NCBI RefSeq assembly: GCF_027622855.1
Contig: NZ_JAPZVR010000011.1
Location: forward strand, 24,881 to 88,880
Reading direction: 5' to 3'
DNA length: 64,000 bases
Source of the DNA: Glycomyces algeriensis
GTDB lineage: Bacteria; Actinomycetota; Actinomycetes; Mycobacteriales; Micromonosporaceae
Position numbers and translations under genes: made by a program. This document shows positions 9,613 through 63,771 of the stretch, in pieces. The notes beneath the pieces are model-generated. The model had not been told where the DNA came from. It saw only the letters and a list, made by a program, of their open reading frames with translations, and made no database searches. Each line of letters begins with the position of its first letter. The stretch's first letter is position 1.

Positions 9613-9686
9613 CGGGACGTGGCGCAGCTTGGTAGCGCACCCGCTTTGGGAGTGGGGGGTCGCAGGTTCAAATCCTGTCGTCCCGA
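9613..9686 (+). tRNA. tRNA-Pro, anticodon TGG
   Basis: A 74-base cloverleaf. The acceptor stem CGGGACG pairs with CGTCCCG, the D arm holds GCGCAGCTTGGTAGCGC, and the anticodon loop TTTGGGA carries TGG at its centre, reading proline CCA. The T arm has GGTTCAAATCC. Discriminator base A is at 9686. The opposite strand yields an ORF that is often mis-annotated as protein. A strong terminator follows directly. Confidence 0.97.
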
Positions 9687-9693
9687 CAATCGG

Positions 9694-55459: not shown

Positions 55460-55840
55460 CGAGTCGGCCAGGCGGTCGCGGCGGATGCGGGAGACCACAT
55501 CCGGCGAGGAACGTCCGGGCTCCTCAGGGCAGGGTGGTTGCTAACGGCAACCCGGGGCGACCCGCGGGACAGTGCCACAGAAAAGAGACCGCCGGCTTCG
55601 GCCGGTAAGGGTGAAACGGTGGTGTAAGAGACCACCAGCGCCGCCGGTGACGGCGGCGGCTCGGTAAACCCCACCCGGAGCAAGGTCAAAAGGAGCCGCG
55701 AGGCTCTGCGTGAAGGCCCGAGGGCGGCCCGCCCGAGCCCGCAAGGGCGCCTTCACGGGTAGACCGCTCGAGCACGCCGGCAACGGCGCGCCTAGATGGA
55801 TGACCGCTCAACGACAGAACCCGGCGTATCGGTCGGCTCG
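55460..55840 (+). ncRNA. rnpB: RNase P RNA (bacterial type A)
   Basis: The catalytic RNA that trims tRNA 5' ends. The P1 arms CGAGTCGGCC and GGTCGGCTCG pair with two wobbles. The universally conserved core strings are present: GAGGAACGTCCGGGCTC, ACAGTGCCACAGAAA, TAAGGGTGAAACGGTGGTG, TAAGAGACCACCAGCG and, near the 3' end, AACCCGGCGTAT. The ends fit the actinobacterial consensus at about 381 bases. A TACGCT -10-like box is at 55442-55447. The 3' end is immediately followed by an integrative element. Confidence 0.96.
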
Positions 55841-55862
55841 TTCCCCAGCATCGAAAGCAAGA

Positions 55863-55905
55863 AGGGTGTTCACCTGCGGATACACAGGTGAACACCCTCC
55901 CTTTT
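55863..55905. terminator. Strong hairpin between rnpB and the integrase
   Basis: A 14-bp stem (55863-55876 with 55885-55898) with an 8-base loop CGGATACA, followed rightward by CCCTTTT. It can end rnpB transcription; leftward it faces the integrase end (TTCTTGC), so it may serve both. Confidence 0.8.
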
Positions 55906-55941
55906 AGATCAGAGCTTGCCCTCTGGGCCGTGGCGGGGCCG

Positions 55942-57129
55942 TCAGCCGCCCCAAGCGTCATCGAGGATCTGACGGGCCCGGCCCCGACTGTTCGGCATCA
56001 GATGCCCGTACACGCGGAGCGTGAAGCCGGGATCTTTGTGACCGAGGAATTCCGCGAGGGCCCGGATATTGCCGCCGTTTTCCAGGATCGTGCTCGCGTA
56101 GTAGTGCCGAAGCGCGTGCGTCCCGGTGTTCTGCTCAGGCCCGAACGCCGTCGTCCCGATCCCCTTGCGCCAAGCGCCCGGCTCGTACATGAACGAGCTG
56201 CGGTGAATGGCAGCCTTCCGGACATTCGTAAAGACGAGGTTGAACGTCACCTCCTCCCCGTCGAGCTCTCCCCAGGGAAGCGTCACCGGCTGCGGCGGGA
56301 ACCGCTCCATGTGCGCCCGGAGTGCTTCAGCAACGAACCGCGGCAGCGGCACGACCCGCGTCGAATCCCGCTTCGGCGGGGCAAAGAGCCGCTTCGAGCT
56401 GAGCAGCTTCACCTGGCGCCGGAGGTGGATCTCCTCCGCGCCGAAGTCGATGTCGTCAACGTCGAGGCCGAAGATCTCGCCGATGCGGAAGCCGCAGCCC
56501 GCGCCGACCGGCACCATGGCCTGATAGCGCGGGGCGAGCTTCGACTGCACCGAATCCAGCTGCGCCCGGTTCCACGGGACCACGAGCCGGTTCGCCGCCC
56601 GCGGCTTCTTCAGGCTCTTCGCCTGGCACGGATTCGAGCGGATCAGCTTGTCATCGACCGCCGCGTCGAACATTGAATTGACGTAGACGAAGAGCACCGC
56701 CTTGGTGGATTCCTCGAGCGCCAGCCCAGCGAGCCAGGTGCGAATCGTGCTGGTCAGGCACGCCTCGAGCGGGCGCCCGGTGAAGTAGGGAATGAAGTGC
56801 TTCCCCAGTTGCCGGTTGACCTGCTCTTTCGTCGCCGAGTCACCGCCGAGGCCCTTGAGCCATTCCTTCGTGAAGGCGCCCGTGTCGGTCTTGCCGGCGT
56901 CCGGGTCGATGAAGGTCCCGGCTTTCAGGTCCTTCTGGACATCGGTGAGGAAGTCCTTCGCGTCCTCCTTCTTGCCGTCCTCGAACGACTTGGAACGCTC
57001 CAGGCCCTCGGCGTTGAAGTAGCGGACCCGGTAGCGCATCCCGATGCCGTGGCGGTCGGACTTGATCCGCTTCCGCTTTCCGTCCTCGTAGACGACCTTC
57101 CACCAGCGATCCTCGACATGACCCGCCAT
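55942..57129 (-). CDS. int: Site-specific tyrosine integrase of the AICE
   Basis: A 395-aa tyrosine recombinase. The arm-binding/core N-terminal part covers about 1-180. The catalytic residues are Arg215 (GFRIGE), His338-x-x-Arg341 (HALRH), His364 (FLGHKD) and Tyr374 (RVYGHL). It inserts and excises the element between attP and attB. The ATG at 57129 overlaps the excisionase stop by one base (TGATG); the 22-codon extension upstream is discarded. The 3' end is 101 bases from rnpB. Confidence 0.95.
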   Translation of the reverse strand: MAGHVEDRWWKVVYEDGKRKRIKSDRHGIGMRYRVRYFNAEGLERSKSFEDGKKEDAKDFLTDVQKDLKAGTFIDPDAGKTDTGAFTKEWLKGLGGDSATKEQVNRQLGKHFIPYFTGRPLEACLTSTIRTWLAGLALEESTKAVLFVYVNSMFDAAVDDKLIRSNPCQAKSLKKPRAANRLVVPWNRAQLDSVQSKLAPRYQAMVPVGAGCGFRIGEIFGLDVDDIDFGAEEIHLRRQVKLLSSKRLFAPPKRDSTRVVPLPRFVAEALRAHMERFPPQPVTLPWGELDGEEVTFNLVFTNVRKAAIHRSSFMYEPGAWRKGIGTTAFGPEQNTGTHALRHYYASTILENGGNIRALAEFLGHKDPGFTLRVYGHLMPNSRGRARQILDDAWGG

Positions 57130-57308
57130 CAGGCCACCTCCCCGCCGCACTCTTTGAACCATGCGAGAACGTGCTGCGGGTGATACCGGAGGCACCGGCC
57201 CATCCGAGCGGCCTTCGGGCCGGTCTTCTTCTTCCGCCAGTAGCGCAGCGTCTCAACCGGGATGTTCAGGAACTCCGAGACCTGCTCGATTGTCCAGAGC
57301 GGTTCCAT
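57129..57308 (-). CDS. xis: Excisionase, MerR-like helix-turn-helix
   Basis: A 59-aa recombination-directionality factor. A winged HTH (PLWTIEQVSEFLNIPVETLR then YWRKKKTGP) matches HTH_17 excisionases of actinomycete elements; the WR and RY residues contact DNA. The ATG overlaps the repSA stop by one base (TGATG) and its own stop overlaps int, so repSA-xis-int form one transcript. Confidence 0.92.
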   Translation of the reverse strand: MEPLWTIEQVSEFLNIPVETLRYWRKKKTGPKAARMGRCLRYHPQHVLAWFKECGGEVA

Positions 57309-58666
57309 CACCGCACCTCCCGGTTGCTGTTGTCGCGGTTGAGTTTTCGTTCGAGTAGCGCTTCGGCGATGGCTTGGGCGTACTCGCGTTCGGCGTCGGT
57401 GTCGTGGCCGAAGCCGACCGCTTCCCAGTCGTTGACGATCAGCACGTCGTCCTCGGCGACCTCGAGCGCAGCGAGGGTTTCGGCGAGGCGGAAGCGAGCG
57501 CGGATGTTCCGCAGCTCACCGAGCGTGGTCGACCAGGCGCGGGACTTGGTGAGGAAGTGGCCGCGGAAGCCGAGCATGTGCGCCCAGCGGCGCAGGTTGA
57601 GATCGGCATAGGCTTCGAGGCCGCCGAGCTCCCAGGCGGTGCGCATCATGGCCTTGTGGTGCGCCGAGACCGTGAGAAGGTCGATGTCCTCTGCGCTGCG
57701 GATCTTGCGGTCCGGCCCGTCGTGGGCGCCGGTGGACTTGGTGGCGTACTTGGCGATGTAGGAGGCCAGCCGCGAGGACTTGATGTCGGCCTCCTCCCCC
57801 ACCTCCCCGGAGCCAGCCGCGGCGGCGGTGATGTCGCGCAGATCGAGCTGGGAACCGAAGCGGAGCTCGAGTGCTTCCCCGGTCCGGCGGGCGACGGTGA
57901 TGACCGTGTTCTCGGCGGCGGTGCGGATGGCGTCGGCGAGTCGTTCCTTCGTGGCCCACACCGGAGCACGAGTCGCCGCACCTTCGGGGCCGTCGAGCCG
58001 GATGACGGCGTGGAAGTGGACCAGGCCGCGCCGCTGGTACTCGGCGACCTTGGCGTAGGAGAGCCGGGCGGCGTCTTTGAACTCGGCGACCTTCAGGCCG
58101 GCAGCGTGCGCGAGCTGGCGGCGCAGGGCGATGGTGAACCGGTGCCACAGCTTCCCCGCGTGCGCCTGCCACAGGACCGCGGCTTCATAGTCGTACGCCG
58201 CTAGGTCGATGGCCTGCCCGAGACGCGTGTCGGCCTCCTTGTGCCACTCGCCGCAGGAGCACGGCCGGGTGAGACGACCACCGGCACCGACGACGCGGGA
58301 GTGGACCGGCCCGAACGAAGGCGGCGTGAGCGTGGCGAAGTAGCGGGGCCGGTCGGCGACCTCAGGCGTGATGCCCTTCGAGGCGTCCCCGTCGAGCCCG
58401 GCGCGGATGAGGTGGAAGGCGTCCTCGGCGTACCACTGGGCGCATGCAGGGCAGAGCGCTTCGCGGCGAGTTCCGCACGGCACCCACACCGAGCCCACGG
58501 TGTCCTTCAGGACCGCGCCGGTTGCTTTGTGCGTGATGGTCGAGGAGCCGCGCAGCTTGATCGGGGCGGCGCAGCCGTGGACGGACTTGACTTTGGTCTT
58601 CCAGATGCGGAAACCCGGTCGGGTGACGAGGGCGCGGAGTCCTGCGTCGGGATCGATATGGTGCAT
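57308..58666 (-). CDS. repSA: RepSA-type replication initiator
   Basis: A 452-aa rolling-circle initiator of AICE/pSAM2 type that nicks the origin of the excised circle. N-terminal Cys pairs (CPACAQWY and PCSCGEW) may bind zinc. The HUH-like motif RRGLVHFHAVIRLDG, the Tyr-containing LASYIAKYATKS block and the C-terminal LGFRGHFLTKSR block are typical of RepSA. The ATG at 58666 is taken; a 12-codon upstream extension lacks support. A terminator hairpin sits just upstream and insulates it from the next gene. Confidence 0.92.
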   Translation of the reverse strand: MHHIDPDAGLRALVTRPGFRIWKTKVKSVHGCAAPIKLRGSSTITHKATGAVLKDTVGSVWVPCGTRREALCPACAQWYAEDAFHLIRAGLDGDASKGITPEVADRPRYFATLTPPSFGPVHSRVVGAGGRLTRPCSCGEWHKEADTRLGQAIDLAAYDYEAAVLWQAHAGKLWHRFTIALRRQLAHAAGLKVAEFKDAARLSYAKVAEYQRRGLVHFHAVIRLDGPEGAATRAPVWATKERLADAIRTAAENTVITVARRTGEALELRFGSQLDLRDITAAAAGSGEVGEEADIKSSRLASYIAKYATKSTGAHDGPDRKIRSAEDIDLLTVSAHHKAMMRTAWELGGLEAYADLNLRRWAHMLGFRGHFLTKSRAWSTTLGELRNIRARFRLAETLAALEVAEDDVLIVNDWEAVGFGHDTDAEREYAQAIAEALLERKLNRDNSNREVR

Positions 58667-58700
58667 GGTGAGATACCTGCTTTCTGCTAGCGGAGCGCAC

Positions 58701-58735
58701 AAAGCCCGGACCAGGGTTCAGCTGGTCCGGGCTTT
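58701..58735. terminator. Strong hairpin terminator upstream of repSA
   Basis: A perfect 14-bp stem (58701-58714 with 58722-58735) with a 7-base loop separates repSA from the 117-aa gene. It starts with AAA and ends with TTT, so it can act in both directions. Confidence 0.85.
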
Positions 58736-58765: not shown

Positions 58766-59119
58766 CTAAGCGGTGCCGGCCTGGCGGCGGAACTGGTCGA
58801 TTTCTTCCTCGATCTCGGCGATGCCTTGGTGGCCCCAGCCTTCGAGGTGGGCACGGATGACTCTGGCGGCGAGTGCGCCGTCGAGGGACCCGTCAGAAGC
58901 GACGGGGAGGTTAATGATTCGCGGGTTGACCGATGGGAAGTCCTCGATGATGGCGGTGTCGCCGCCGCGGTAGGTGATGGCGGCGTACTCGCCGGAGTCG
59001 ATGGCCGCTTCCGCCTCGGAGGACTCGGGCCGGAGGAAGGCGTAGCCCTCGGCCTCGAAGTCATCACGGATCGCGTCGCGCAGGTCGGTGAGACCGGTGT
59101 AGATCATCGGGTAGTACAT
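58766..59119 (-). CDS. Small acidic AICE protein (117 aa), unknown
   Basis: A 117-aa acidic protein with no membrane helix or known motif. The start MYYPMIYTGLTDLRDAIRDD is helical; the middle (AITYRGGDTAIIEDF) is beta-rich. AAGGA lies eight bases before the ATG at 59119. It lies in the position where many AICEs carry small regulatory or maintenance genes. Confidence 0.6.
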   Translation of the reverse strand: MYYPMIYTGLTDLRDAIRDDFEAEGYAFLRPESSEAEAAIDSGEYAAITYRGGDTAIIEDFPSVNPRIINLPVASDGSLDGALAARVIRAHLEGWGHQGIAEIEEEIDQFRRQAGTA

Positions 59120-59210
59120 AGTAGAATCCTTTCGCTGAGTCGCGTTGTTGTGGAATCGAATTGGGACCGGTAGGGAGCGGATCAGCGATGCTCCCGCCTG
59201 GTAGCGCGGT

Positions 59211-60128
59211 CTACGCCGGGGTGTTGGCGGCGGCGTAGTACTTGGCGGCCTGCTCGGCCATGGCGGCGGGCAGGTTGATGACGGCTTGCACGTCGGCGGC
59301 GGTGATGGTGCGGCCGGCGTCGGCGAGTTCAGCGGCCCGGGTTTCGAGCTGTTGGAGCATCGGCGCCGGGAGCTTCGGGGGCCGCATCGTGGCCGGCGGG
59401 GTCGGCGAGGTCGAGGCGGCGACGGGCGGCAGGCTCGGTGAGACTGGCGCCGGGGACCGGCCGAAGTCGGCTTCGAAGTCCGCGACCGTGACCGGTGAGG
59501 AGACCGGAGCCGGGGTCGGCTTGACCGGGACCTCGCGTGCGGCCCGCTGCTCGGCTTCGGCGTTGAGCGCGGCGATCTGGGCGAGGACCTTTGCCCGTGC
59601 GATCGCGAAGCGGTCTTGGACGACGGGCATGACCTCGGCGAGGCAGAACACCAGGCCCGGGAAGGCCACATGCAAGACCTTCTCGACCGTCGTTCCGTCG
59701 AGGGAAGAGAGCACGTTCATCGCGAGTGTGGATCCGAGCAGGGCCCACTTGGTGAAGGTGACCCAGTTTGACTCGATGGCGATGCCGCGCATGAGCATGG
59801 CCGCTTCCCACCGCAGTACGGTGATGAGCATTCCGGCGAGAGCAGGTTCGACGGCCCACGCGCCCCACCACATCGGGTCAGTGATGTGCAGGCCCTCGGC
59901 GATGAAGTCGTGAACGCCGACCGTGGTGTAGCCGAGCCCGACCGCCAGAAAGAACCACAGTGACCCCGTGATCGAGGCCCGGAACCGGTCCAGCTCCACG
60001 ACCTTCAAGTACGGGTCGTCAGCGATCCGATGGACCTGGCGAGCCTCCCCGACCTTCTTCCGGAGCTTCGCGACCTTCTTCGCCTCCTCCTCGGCCTCCT
60101 CGGATGCTTTCCCTTGTCTTGCAACCAT
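59211..60128 (-). CDS. SpdB-like membrane protein, DUF2637
   Basis: A 305-aa membrane protein of the intramycelial-spread group. The N-terminus is charged (residues 1-45, coiled coil EEAEEEAKKVAKLRKKV). Four transmembrane helices lie at about 55-75, 90-110, 125-145 and 150-170. The Pro/Ala/Thr-rich C-terminal tail is cytoplasmic. The pattern matches DUF2637 proteins encoded next to TraB in AICEs. AGGAGG precedes the ATG. Confidence 0.85.
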   Translation of the reverse strand: MVARQGKASEEAEEEAKKVAKLRKKVGEARQVHRIADDPYLKVVELDRFRASITGSLWFFLAVGLGYTTVGVHDFIAEGLHITDPMWWGAWAVEPALAGMLITVLRWEAAMLMRGIAIESNWVTFTKWALLGSTLAMNVLSSLDGTTVEKVLHVAFPGLVFCLAEVMPVVQDRFAIARAKVLAQIAALNAEAEQRAAREVPVKPTPAPVSSPVTVADFEADFGRSPAPVSPSLPPVAASTSPTPPATMRPPKLPAPMLQQLETRAAELADAGRTITAADVQAVINLPAAMAEQAAKYYAAANTPA

Positions 60129-60184: not shown

Positions 60185-60634
60185 TTAGAGGCGGTCGTCC
60201 AGGAGCAGGTTGTAGGCGTCGGCCAGGATCGTGTTGTGGTCGAAGCCGAGCCGGTCGCGCAGGGCCGCTTCGATGTCAAACCACCCGGCAGCGGCGGCAT
60301 CGTCTCCGGCTGTGAGGTTTCCGGGCAGGTTGGTGAGGTGAGCGGCGTAGACGGCCGTGATCACGCGGGCCCGGGGATCGCGGTCGAGATCGTCGTAGAG
60401 GTTGACCGCGCGGAGCGCATCCGGGTGGAGGTCGAGGCCGGTCTCTTCGCGCAGCTCGCGGACAGCGGCGTCCTTGGCCGTCTCGTGGGGCTCGACATGG
60501 CCGCCGGGGAAGACCTTGCATCCCTTGAACGGGGCCTTGCCACGTTCGACCAGGAGCACGTTGCCGTCATAGAAGACGACGACATCGGCAGCGAACCGGT
60601 AGGACTCGCGGTCATCAGTTTTGTTGGTGGACAT
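60185..60634 (-). CDS. Nudix hydrolase carried by the AICE
   Basis: A 149-aa pyrophosphatase. The Nudix box runs from GGHVEPHET to LREETGLDL, with the catalytic RE and EE acids in place. Nudix genes are common in AICEs and are thought to influence element excision through a signalling nucleotide. AAGGAG precedes the ATG. It lies between spdB and traB. The target is unknown. Confidence 0.87.
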   Translation of the reverse strand: MSTNKTDDRESYRFAADVVVFYDGNVLLVERGKAPFKGCKVFPGGHVEPHETAKDAAVRELREETGLDLHPDALRAVNLYDDLDRDPRARVITAVYAAHLTNLPGNLTAGDDAAAAGWFDIEAALRDRLGFDHNTILADAYNLLLDDRL

Positions 60635-60667: not shown

Positions 60668-62062
60668 TCAGGCGACGAGGCGCAGGTGCGATCCGCCCTG
60701 CTCTTCGTGGCCGTCGCGTTCGGCGAGGACGTGCTTGACGAGGCCTTCAAGATCGGCGTCGGTGGCGTAGGCGGCCCGGACTCGCAACGGCGTGCGGGTG
60801 CGCTCGGCGACCTTGAAGCCGATGCCGGCCGTGGCCGGGATGTTCGGGATCTCGTCAGCGAGAGCGCCACGCATCCGGGCGCCGTCGCCCAGGACCATCT
60901 CGGGGTGGACAGCTGCGGTGACCCGCAGGCAGATCCGGAGCGTGAACAGGTCGCGGACCGGCACGGTGTCTTTCGTGGGTTCCTGGACGGCGCCCCACAT
61001 CAGGTGGCCGGTCGCGCGGCCTTGGGAGCCGACGAGGGCCATGCCCTGGCGGTTGCGCATCATGCGCGTGCGGTCCGAGCCGTAAGCCAGGACCGCGCCC
61101 AGCTCATCCACGATCAAGATGTTGAGCGGCGTTTCCACGCTGGGCGTGAACTTCCGAAGTCCCTGCTCGTGGAGCTTCGCCTGGGTGGCCTGCTGGTCTT
61201 CCAGGAACTCCGAGACGACCTCAGCGGAAGCCTCTTCGCCGGAGGCGTAGCGGTGGGCGATCGGAGCGGCGGCGTTCAGCTCGACCTGCTTGGGGTCGCA
61301 CAGCCACAGCCGGACCGAGCCCTCGGCGATCATCGGCGCGAGCGTGAACAGCGGCGCCCACAGCACCGAGTTCTTCCCCGAACCAGTCGCGCCCGAGACC
61401 AGCATGTGCTTGTCGGACATGTCCTCGGTCCACTCCCGGCCGAACTCGTCGAAGCCAAAGTGCACGCGAGCCAGGTCGACCTCCTCGACCGTCGCCGGGA
61501 TCTCCGGAGCCGGGATCGTGTACGTGAACGGCTCCCGCCGCTGGACGATGAGCGCGATCTTCCGCGGGGCGAGCTTCTCAACGGTGACCCGCTCGGCGTT
61601 GAAGCACGCGGCCAAGACCTCGGCGGCGTCCATCCAGTGCTTGACCGTCTGGCCCTTGAGGATCTTGATCCACACCGTCTCCACAGCCGAGGAGTACGAG
61701 CGCAGCCGCAGAATCCGAGGAACCAGGAGTTCGCCGGTCGAGGGATGCTCGCGGACCAGGTTGGCTTCGCGCATGTTCCGTCGCCAGGCAGGGCCGGTGT
61801 AGGTGGCCGACAGCCAGCGGCGGCGCAGATTCCGCAGATGCGGCAGCACGAGCTGGTCGAAGGAGTCGGGGTGCGCCCGGCCCCAGGCGACGGCAGCGGC
61901 GAGTGTCGAACCAGCGGCCCAAGCGGTGACCTCAGGAGCGGTCGCGGCGGCGTAGCCCAGTGCCGGCACGGTCGTGGTGATGAGCGGGTGGCGACCGACC
62001 CAGGCGGCGGCCTTCCATTCCAGACCAGTCTTGCGTTTGGACTTCGAGTGGTTTTCGGACAT
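60668..62062 (-). CDS. traB: FtsK/SpoIIIE-like DNA translocase TraB
   Basis: A 464-aa hexameric motor moving double-stranded DNA between cells. Two transmembrane helices lie near 25-60. The Walker A motif is GATGSGKN at 224-231, with Asn where Ser/Thr is usual; AICE TraB proteins often vary here. Walker B is NILIVDELGAV near 314-324. The C-terminus is the gamma-like DNA-contact region. GGAGG precedes the ATG at 62062. It is the main transfer gene of the element. Confidence 0.92.
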   Translation of the reverse strand: MSENHSKSKRKTGLEWKAAAWVGRHPLITTTVPALGYAAATAPEVTAWAAGSTLAAAVAWGRAHPDSFDQLVLPHLRNLRRRWLSATYTGPAWRRNMREANLVREHPSTGELLVPRILRLRSYSSAVETVWIKILKGQTVKHWMDAAEVLAACFNAERVTVEKLAPRKIALIVQRREPFTYTIPAPEIPATVEEVDLARVHFGFDEFGREWTEDMSDKHMLVSGATGSGKNSVLWAPLFTLAPMIAEGSVRLWLCDPKQVELNAAAPIAHRYASGEEASAEVVSEFLEDQQATQAKLHEQGLRKFTPSVETPLNILIVDELGAVLAYGSDRTRMMRNRQGMALVGSQGRATGHLMWGAVQEPTKDTVPVRDLFTLRICLRVTAAVHPEMVLGDGARMRGALADEIPNIPATAGIGFKVAERTRTPLRVRAAYATDADLEGLVKHVLAERDGHEEQGGSHLRLVA

Positions 62063-62187
62063 GACAAGTACCTCCCGCCTAGTGGCGTGATTTGTTGAGT
62101 AGCAATAGGATTCGTGCAATTCGGCGGATGTGACCGCCCCCTCGGACCCCGTAGTGCCGAGGGAGGATCAGACCGGCCGAAGCGGGT

Positions 62188-62953: not shown

Positions 62954-63379
62954 TCACATTGACCAGCCCTGGACCAGCTTCGGGATGCAGTCGGCCTCGT
63001 AGGCGTCGACGTAGCCCCAGACCGTGAACCGCTGCCCGAACTTCAGGCAGTCGGCTTGGATCTTCACTTCCCCGGTACCGGCGGGTTCGGCTTCGACCGT
63101 GCCGTCACCGCAGATCTCGGCCCACTCGCAGACCGAATAGCGGACCATCGCCAGCAGGTAGCCCCTAGGGCATCCGTAGGCCCACCGCCATTCCGAAGGG
63201 AGCGGCAGGCCGGGGCACTCGCGGGCGAAGAAGTCGTTCAGCTGGTGCGTGGCGAACTGGTCCGCCTCGCTCCGGCCGGGCCGGTTGCGTTCCTGCTTGA
63301 TGAGGCTCGACATCCGCGATTCAGCGTCAGCCCATGCCTTCACTTCGCGCTGTTCCTTGGCGTGCAACGTCTCTCGCAT
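62954..63379 (-). CDS. AICE protein (141 aa), unknown
   Basis: A 141-aa soluble protein rich in charged residues and Trp. Residues 1-55 are helical (KEQREVKAWADAESRMSSLI); the C-terminal half has four Cys (CPGLP, CPRGYL, CEWAEICG) and may bind metal. AGGAG precedes the ATG at 63379. No recognised domain. Confidence 0.65.
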   Translation of the reverse strand: MRETLHAKEQREVKAWADAESRMSSLIKQERNRPGRSEADQFATHQLNDFFARECPGLPLPSEWRWAYGCPRGYLLAMVRYSVCEWAEICGDGTVEAEPAGTGEVKIQADCLKFGQRFTVWGYVDAYEADCIPKLVQGWSM

Positions 63380-63411
63380 AACCTCAGCTCCTTTCAGGGT
63401 TGAAGGGCTGC

Positions 63412-63771
63412 TCACAGCAGCCCGGAGGGATTGAGCCGGAACCACGGCTCGACATCGTGTTGATCGGCGACGCATTCGACGTGGACGACATGGCCGGCAA
63501 GCAGGTGCCGGGCGTACAGGACGACCTCAGGGGGCGGGCCGAACTCGAAACCGGGGTCGGCGCCGGTGGCATCGCACCAGTCGGCGAAGTCGCGCACCGA
63601 CCCGTAGCCCTCGAAGACGCCGATCAGCTCGCGATCGGCGATCCACCGCGGTTGGACCGTCCCGTCAGGCAGCACCTCGGTGAGGGCCTGACGGAACAGT
63701 GCGTTCACGGCGTGCGGTTCTCGCGAGGCCGCGACCTTGGCGACCTCGGCGGCGAGCACGTTCGCCTTCAC
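63412..63771 (-). CDS. AICE protein (119 aa), unknown
   Basis: A 119-aa protein with a GTG start at 63771 that overlaps the upstream stop as GTGA, so it is translationally coupled. It has an acidic helical N-terminus and a beta-rich centre ending HVECVADQHDVEPWFRLNPS. No recognised domain. Confidence 0.65.
   Translation of the reverse strand: MKANVLAAEVAKVAASREPHAVNALFRQALTEVLPDGTVQPRWIADRELIGVFEGYGSVRDFADWCDATGADPGFEFGPPPEVVLYARHLLAGHVVHVECVADQHDVEPWFRLNPSGLL

Follow-up and report, generated by a model that had tools for sequence, protein, structure and literature searches.

A 14.4-kb pSAM2-like actinomycete integrative and conjugative element (AICE) of Glycomyces algeriensis has very probably used the 3' end of rnpB, which encodes RNase P RNA, as its attachment site, where its own tyrosine integrase inserted it. 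This reading is based on an exact direct repeat of the rnpB end (27 of 27 positions), cores that track the integrase among related genomes, empty sites, arm-type repeats and a set of AICE genes, together with the occurrence of the same site at 46 of 83 related integrases and of this integrase type beside the core in 22 of 26 viral stretches that carry it. Among structured RNA genes, those for tRNA and tmRNA are known to serve as attachment sites. RNase P RNA belongs to a tRNA-processing enzyme, and because its gene is usually single-copy and essential, an inserted element must leave it whole. The window, that is, the whole 64,000-nt stretch analysed here, corresponds to C3:24881-88880 within a 5.59-Mb genome; its features are collected in Table 1.

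Table 1. Features of the rnpB locus and of the element integrated beside it (window coordinates)
Feature	Position	Strand	Evidence and remarks
rnpB, RNase P RNA class A	55460..55844	+	RF00010, 269.9 bits, full length, model 1-367
attL core, 27 nt	55819..55845	+	Exact second copy; core pattern search of 17 genomes
Terminator-like hairpin (14-bp arms, 8-nt loop, then CCCTTTT)	55863..55898	.	Between rnpB and int, element-borne; arms 100% complementary
Putative arm-type repeat GGGCCGT, copy 1, int side	55925..55931	+	Heptamer at the same core offset in 5/5 Glycomyces elements (GGGCCGT in three, GGGGCGC in two)
Putative arm-type repeat GGGCCGT, copy 2	55936..55942	+	11 bp after copy 1
Tyrosine integrase (int), 395 aa	55942..57129	-	PF00589, E 1.1e-18
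Excisionase-like HTH_17 protein	57129..57311	-	PF12728, E 9e-10 for 57135-57311; stop overlaps int start
RepSA replication initiator, pSAM2 type	57308..58702	-	PF20199, E 3.4e-141; NF041486, 440.8 bits, below cut-off 700
ORF, 301 aa, putative gene	58766..59671	-	No family
NUDIX protein, perhaps Pif-like	60185..60634	-	PF00293, E 3.1e-22
FtsK/SpoIIIE-type transfer protein (Tra)	60668..62119	-	PF01580, E 5.1e-11
ORF, 173 aa, putative gene in element	62954..63475	-	No family; element continues past window end
Cargo: GntR/UTRA regulator, EamA transporter, 657-aa DUF4365-TPR protein	64915-68627 (L004:10796-14508)		Outside window

The attachment gene at this locus is rnpB, through its 3' end. The original observation that the integrase stops shortly after rnpB held, although the gap from the rnpB end to the int stop codon measures 97 nt and not the claimed 101 bases. 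Residues R215, K253, H338, R341, H364 and Y374, which we take to be the catalytic residues of the integrase, occupy invariant columns in the 18 rows of alignment A3, the window integrase included; NCBIfam provided no specific name for the protein. The absence of any tRNA between or near the two genes was likewise confirmed with ARAGORN and Rfam, the only one reported in the window being a tRNA-Pro at 9613-9687, 46 kb away, and no tRNA was detected in the 19.5 kb that span the whole element (G000:C3:79000-98500). A tRNA-type attB was ruled out, since neither the element nor its flanks contain a tRNA.

The proposal that the rnpB end recurs as a direct repeat at the other junction was borne out by a copy on the same strand, identical to attL at all 27 positions and 14,383 bp downstream of it (attR; G000:C3:95082-95108, equivalent to window coordinate 70202-70228, outside the window), which places the right end of the element 6.2 kb past the window end. 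A whole-genome BLAST search with 55700-55950 returned, beyond the query itself and a local hairpin, this single match (E 1.2e-6). As anticipated, the core lies inside the last helix of RNase P RNA, covering the whole 3' strand of P1 and the preceding CCCGGC stretch, a block that is presumably part of P4. The expectation that rnpB is restored on integration also agrees with the data, given the full RF00010 match at attL and a P1 helix with 10 of 10 pairs. The P1 helix pairs 10 of 10 in the five integrated and 12 other genomes, which is a weak test because most strands swapped between genomes pair too (mean 9.24 of 10).

The presence of a second core follows the presence of the integrase within the genus. 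Seventeen rnpB loci were compared, comprising 15 of the same genus, that of G. xiaoerkulensis (G150, NZ_PGGV01000029) and the window's own, with G209 and G150 counted as one genome; the core pattern, allowing up to two mismatches, was run on these 17 genomes and then on five further Glycomyces genomes (G069 being repeated). The integrase is present in 5 of 22 Glycomyces genomes, each time directly after rnpB, with identities of 100, 83, 83, 69 and 68%. All five carry two cores matching the pattern at every position; over this length the two copies are the same in four genomes, and those of G135 differ at 1 of 24 bases. Among the genomes without the integrase, 16 of 17 have a single core at no more than one mismatch, and a looser pattern gave one extra match in G069, which also has no integrase. 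A second core by chance was ruled out by a reversed-pattern control, which had 0 matches in all 17 genomes and in all six of the further run; under the looser pattern, 5 of 354 genomes and 2 of 6 viral records had a control match. Two-mismatch matches in G124, G148 and G205 are located elsewhere and look like chance, and the second rnpB BLAST pieces in G011, G069, G085 and G148 are split alignments or stray short matches.

Relatives without the element, a comparison that had been proposed originally, provided the empty sites: in them rnpB is followed directly by the right-flank genes. A PP2C gene lies directly right of attR, and a PP2C homologue (62-64% identity) stands immediately after rnpB in G145, G108 and G099, which, judged from these flanks, are empty sites for the window element. 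Over 895 nt, the right flank of G132 shares 91% identity with the empty G128, in an alignment whose start lies 7 and 14 nt past the core, and the empty site for G132 and G135 is seen in G128 and G142. Decayed left ends were recognized by eye after attR in G011 and G150 and after rnpB in G117 and G049; therefore, the site has been struck repeatedly. G208, a genome without the integrase, contains two one-mismatch cores and a third copy 166 bp on, with 23 of 24 bases the same. The two one-mismatch copies look like one rnpB end present at two overlapping contig ends. A hairpin and an arm-type repeat lie between the core copies, the sequence beyond resembles by eye the post-rnpB sequence of G148, and the 166-bp stretch looks like the scar of a collapsed insertion.

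The DNA on both sides of the element's core is organized in a regular manner. On the int side, two heptamers lie 107 and 118 bp from the core start in all five Glycomyces elements, and in the window element five more GGGCCGT copies start 142-183 bp from the right end, outside the window. The opposite arm contains four or five heptamer copies, spaced by 11, 11, 8 and 11 in the three five-copy elements and by 11, 8, 11 and 11, 7, 11 in the two four-copy elements. The heptamer reads GGGCCGT in G000, G011 and G135 and GGGGCGC in G132 and G150; each element has one motif in both arms, and the motif split follows the integrase split on the tree. In G000, 7 of 9 forward heptamers are in the arms, two forward and two reverse copies being found elsewhere in the element, and the distribution is similar in the other two elements contained in one stretch; in G135 and G132 the element ends are on two contigs and each end was read separately. 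The layout is that of arm-type integrase sites, and the heptamers would thus be candidates for this role. Arm-type repeats of this sort are described for pACPL and pSAM2 in the accessible text of PMC3364876.

These data bear on the possibility that the second rnpB fragment arose by segmental duplication or was acquired through homologous recombination, and is no attachment site. The repeat is short and sequence is the sole evidence for it, but the copy stops at the gene end, sits at the other AICE junction, recurs in five elements, tracks integrase presence and is framed by arm repeats, which makes such an origin extremely improbable. The hairpin between the core and int is probably a terminator. 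It is kept in all five elements, with 90% of cells paired versus 31-47% in slid controls, and has four pairs changed on both sides, a result reached in 4 of 500 shuffles.

The gene content of the element is that of an AICE. An integrase beside one att site (PF00589), a replication initiator (PF20199), a single FtsK/SpoIIIE-type transfer protein (PF01580) and flanking attL and attR direct repeats are present, whereas the usual integration in a tRNA 3' end is absent, rnpB being used instead. Exceptions to tRNA use are known, and therefore the lack of a tRNA site is compatible with AICE membership. No Pfam match to intramycelial spread genes (spd) was found in the element, several ORFs of which have no family. 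The element at rnpB could be a relic that is no longer able to excise, as would be suggested by the decayed left ends at other Glycomyces loci and by stop codons in some related integrases (G003 and G241). We consider this unlikely, since the window element has uninterrupted reading frames for its integrase, HTH protein, RepSA and Tra, retains the catalytic columns and has identical cores at its two ends. On the favoured reading, the element would bring its own copy of the rnpB end, and its integrase would bind the core quasi-palindrome CCGGC...GTCGG together with the two sets of arm repeats phased at about 11 bp. The HTH protein may direct excision, the excised circle would replicate via RepSA and transfer via the FtsK-type Tra, and after integration the element-borne hairpin would end rnpB transcription.

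Use of the rnpB site extends well beyond Glycomyces. The integrase profile matched at E<=1e-60 in 91 of 354 genomes of the GTDB family searched, which we take to be Micromonosporaceae in GTDB's sense. For the 83 non-Glycomyces places with E<=1e-100, 3 kb downstream of int was examined, and more for some. An rnpB-end core was found downstream of int on the same strand at 46 of them, was absent at 36 (over 3 kb, or 8 kb at four of them), and one place (G297) is at a contig edge; therefore, the integrase group as a whole is not tied to rnpB. No opposite-strand core was detected at any of the 83 places. The presence of rnpB at the other end of the element was confirmed for 14 of the 46 places (12 genomes), where the same stretch also includes an rnpB match, with a direct repeat of its 3' end following int, over at least 24 exact nucleotides except in G067 (37 of 38 nt). 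Three of these 14 belong to an array in G050 (G050:C1:3882500-3982400; L147-L151), in which six cores about 16 kb apart form a tandem array of five units, three of them with a full-length int match. This array should be useful for the study of accretion, and its stacked elements and remnants resemble the AICE accretion described at a Streptomyces tRNA-Arg hot spot in the accessible text of PMC9513070, although the site is tRNA-Arg there and rnpB here. The integrase stop codons of G003 and G241 are in-frame stops in rnpB elements (L137 and L115, respectively) and are signs of decay.

The relative orientation of core and integrase differs between the two sets. In Glycomyces the integrase abuts rnpB, whereas at the 46 other places the core is flipped relative to int and the integrase is at the end far from rnpB. 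On these layouts, it is one site used in two orientations, both of which would be permitted because the core is near-symmetric. Outside the family, the Glycomyces-like layout was found in G647, with an exact 26-nt repeat whose copies are 25.2 kb apart. Among the class-wide integrase relatives, rnpB was placed in 33 genomes, and the listed integrase match is beside rnpB in G439 and G647 only; in G439 the integrase is 75 bp from rnpB and no second core was found in 35 kb. In family f21, presumably Streptomycetaceae, the integrases on the rnpB contig are at least 96 kb from rnpB. At the more distant integrase loci in other families (L160-L186), no tRNA was present within 1.5 kb (27 of 27), and 26 of them (G503 was left out) had nothing closer than six mismatches to their own rnpB end within 1.5 kb. 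The Streptomyces plasmid NZ_CP107792, whose integrase is 41% identical, was rejected as a further case, with no rnpB core in the 12.3 kb examined.

Viral sequences contain the same core. An exact-match search of IMG/VR with two common rnpB ends retrieved 26 stretches from 25 contigs, one of which includes a full rnpB. An integrase ORF of this profile lies beside the core in 22 of the 26, with the Glycomyces-like orientation in 21 and the flipped one in a single case; three of these 22 integrases were already in the profile (L130, L132 and L133), and the set includes stretches that are nearly duplicates. In many f21 genomes the rnpB end has the same bases as the viral-stretch cores. No isolated phage with such a core was found: 80% coverage of the core queries was reached by only 2 of 50,697 records, and both were rejected as unverified faecal scaffolds, each with a whole rnpB.

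Two quick integrase trees (86 and 103 rows) were examined for the history of the site. With their long branches and open forks, they are compatible with either a common origin or convergence, and we assign an even chance to rnpB targeting having arisen independently in Glycomyces and in the other family elements, the flip then reflecting convergence and not the inversion of one ancestral attP. The long stem of the Glycomyces clade (1.1), the core-less integrases between rnpB groups and the 8 and 7 changes that the rnpB label needs on the two trees argue for independent origins, while the shared core bases, the need for only two orientation changes among rnpB integrases per tree and the fact that site losses are as easy as gains argue against them. 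Taken together, the expectation of rnpB as attachment target was upheld, with the refinement that the site is frequent in related integrases and is no one-off. It seems probable that rnpB is a major and so far undescribed hot spot at which mobile DNA integrates in actinobacteria, used by related tyrosine integrases of AICEs and temperate phages in both orientations relative to the integrase gene, with repeated replacement of the rnpB 3' end and terminator.

Comparison with known systems supports the AICE assignment and sets the site apart. The AICEs pSAM2, SLP1, pMR2 and Actinoplanes pACPL likewise have int, an xis-like gene and repSA next to att, and they share with the window element an FtsK-type Tra, a NUDIX protein, a GntR-type regulator and arm-type repeats beside the core. 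According to the accessible text of PMC3364876, pACPL has a 43-nt identity at a tRNA-Pro site and repeats like the pSAM2 arm sites, and the AICEs treated there use the 3' end of a tRNA gene, in contrast to the rnpB of the window element. The vast majority of tyrosine-integrase AICEs are integrated in tRNA 3' ends, with the exception of the pSLS subfamily, as stated in the available part of Ghinet 2011 (PMC3218068). Integration of the Islander/TIGER class also places the core at the 3' end of a structured RNA, leaves the gene intact and has int beside attL, but its targets are tRNA and tmRNA, whereas here it is RNase P RNA. In the accessible text on TIGER/Islander sites (PMC12424338), 33.8% are assigned to tRNA/tmRNA, 43.4% to coding and 22.8% to intergenic sequence, and rnpB and RNase P are absent from that text. 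None of the papers listed in the literature searches reports attachment at rnpB, although subscription papers or supplements might do so; candidate papers that mention rnpB or RNase P do so, in their accessible parts, for other reasons. In kind, the element is an AICE whose RNA-gene attachment site is of a new variety, and the breadth of use and the two orientations are the point of interest.

Integrating vectors for actinobacteria could use the rnpB end as a conserved attB, and targeting of rnpB may explain some elements classed as intergenic by island tools. The two layouts amount to a natural experiment on the reading of a single core by an integrase in either orientation, and past mobile-element insertions may have shaped the rnpB 3' ends and terminators seen in this group. 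As separate observations on rnpB copies, two long matches (to query base 348 of 386) were seen in G105 at C9:1359481 and 3714055, 2.35 Mb apart, and second partial rnpB copies are present in G110 and G137.
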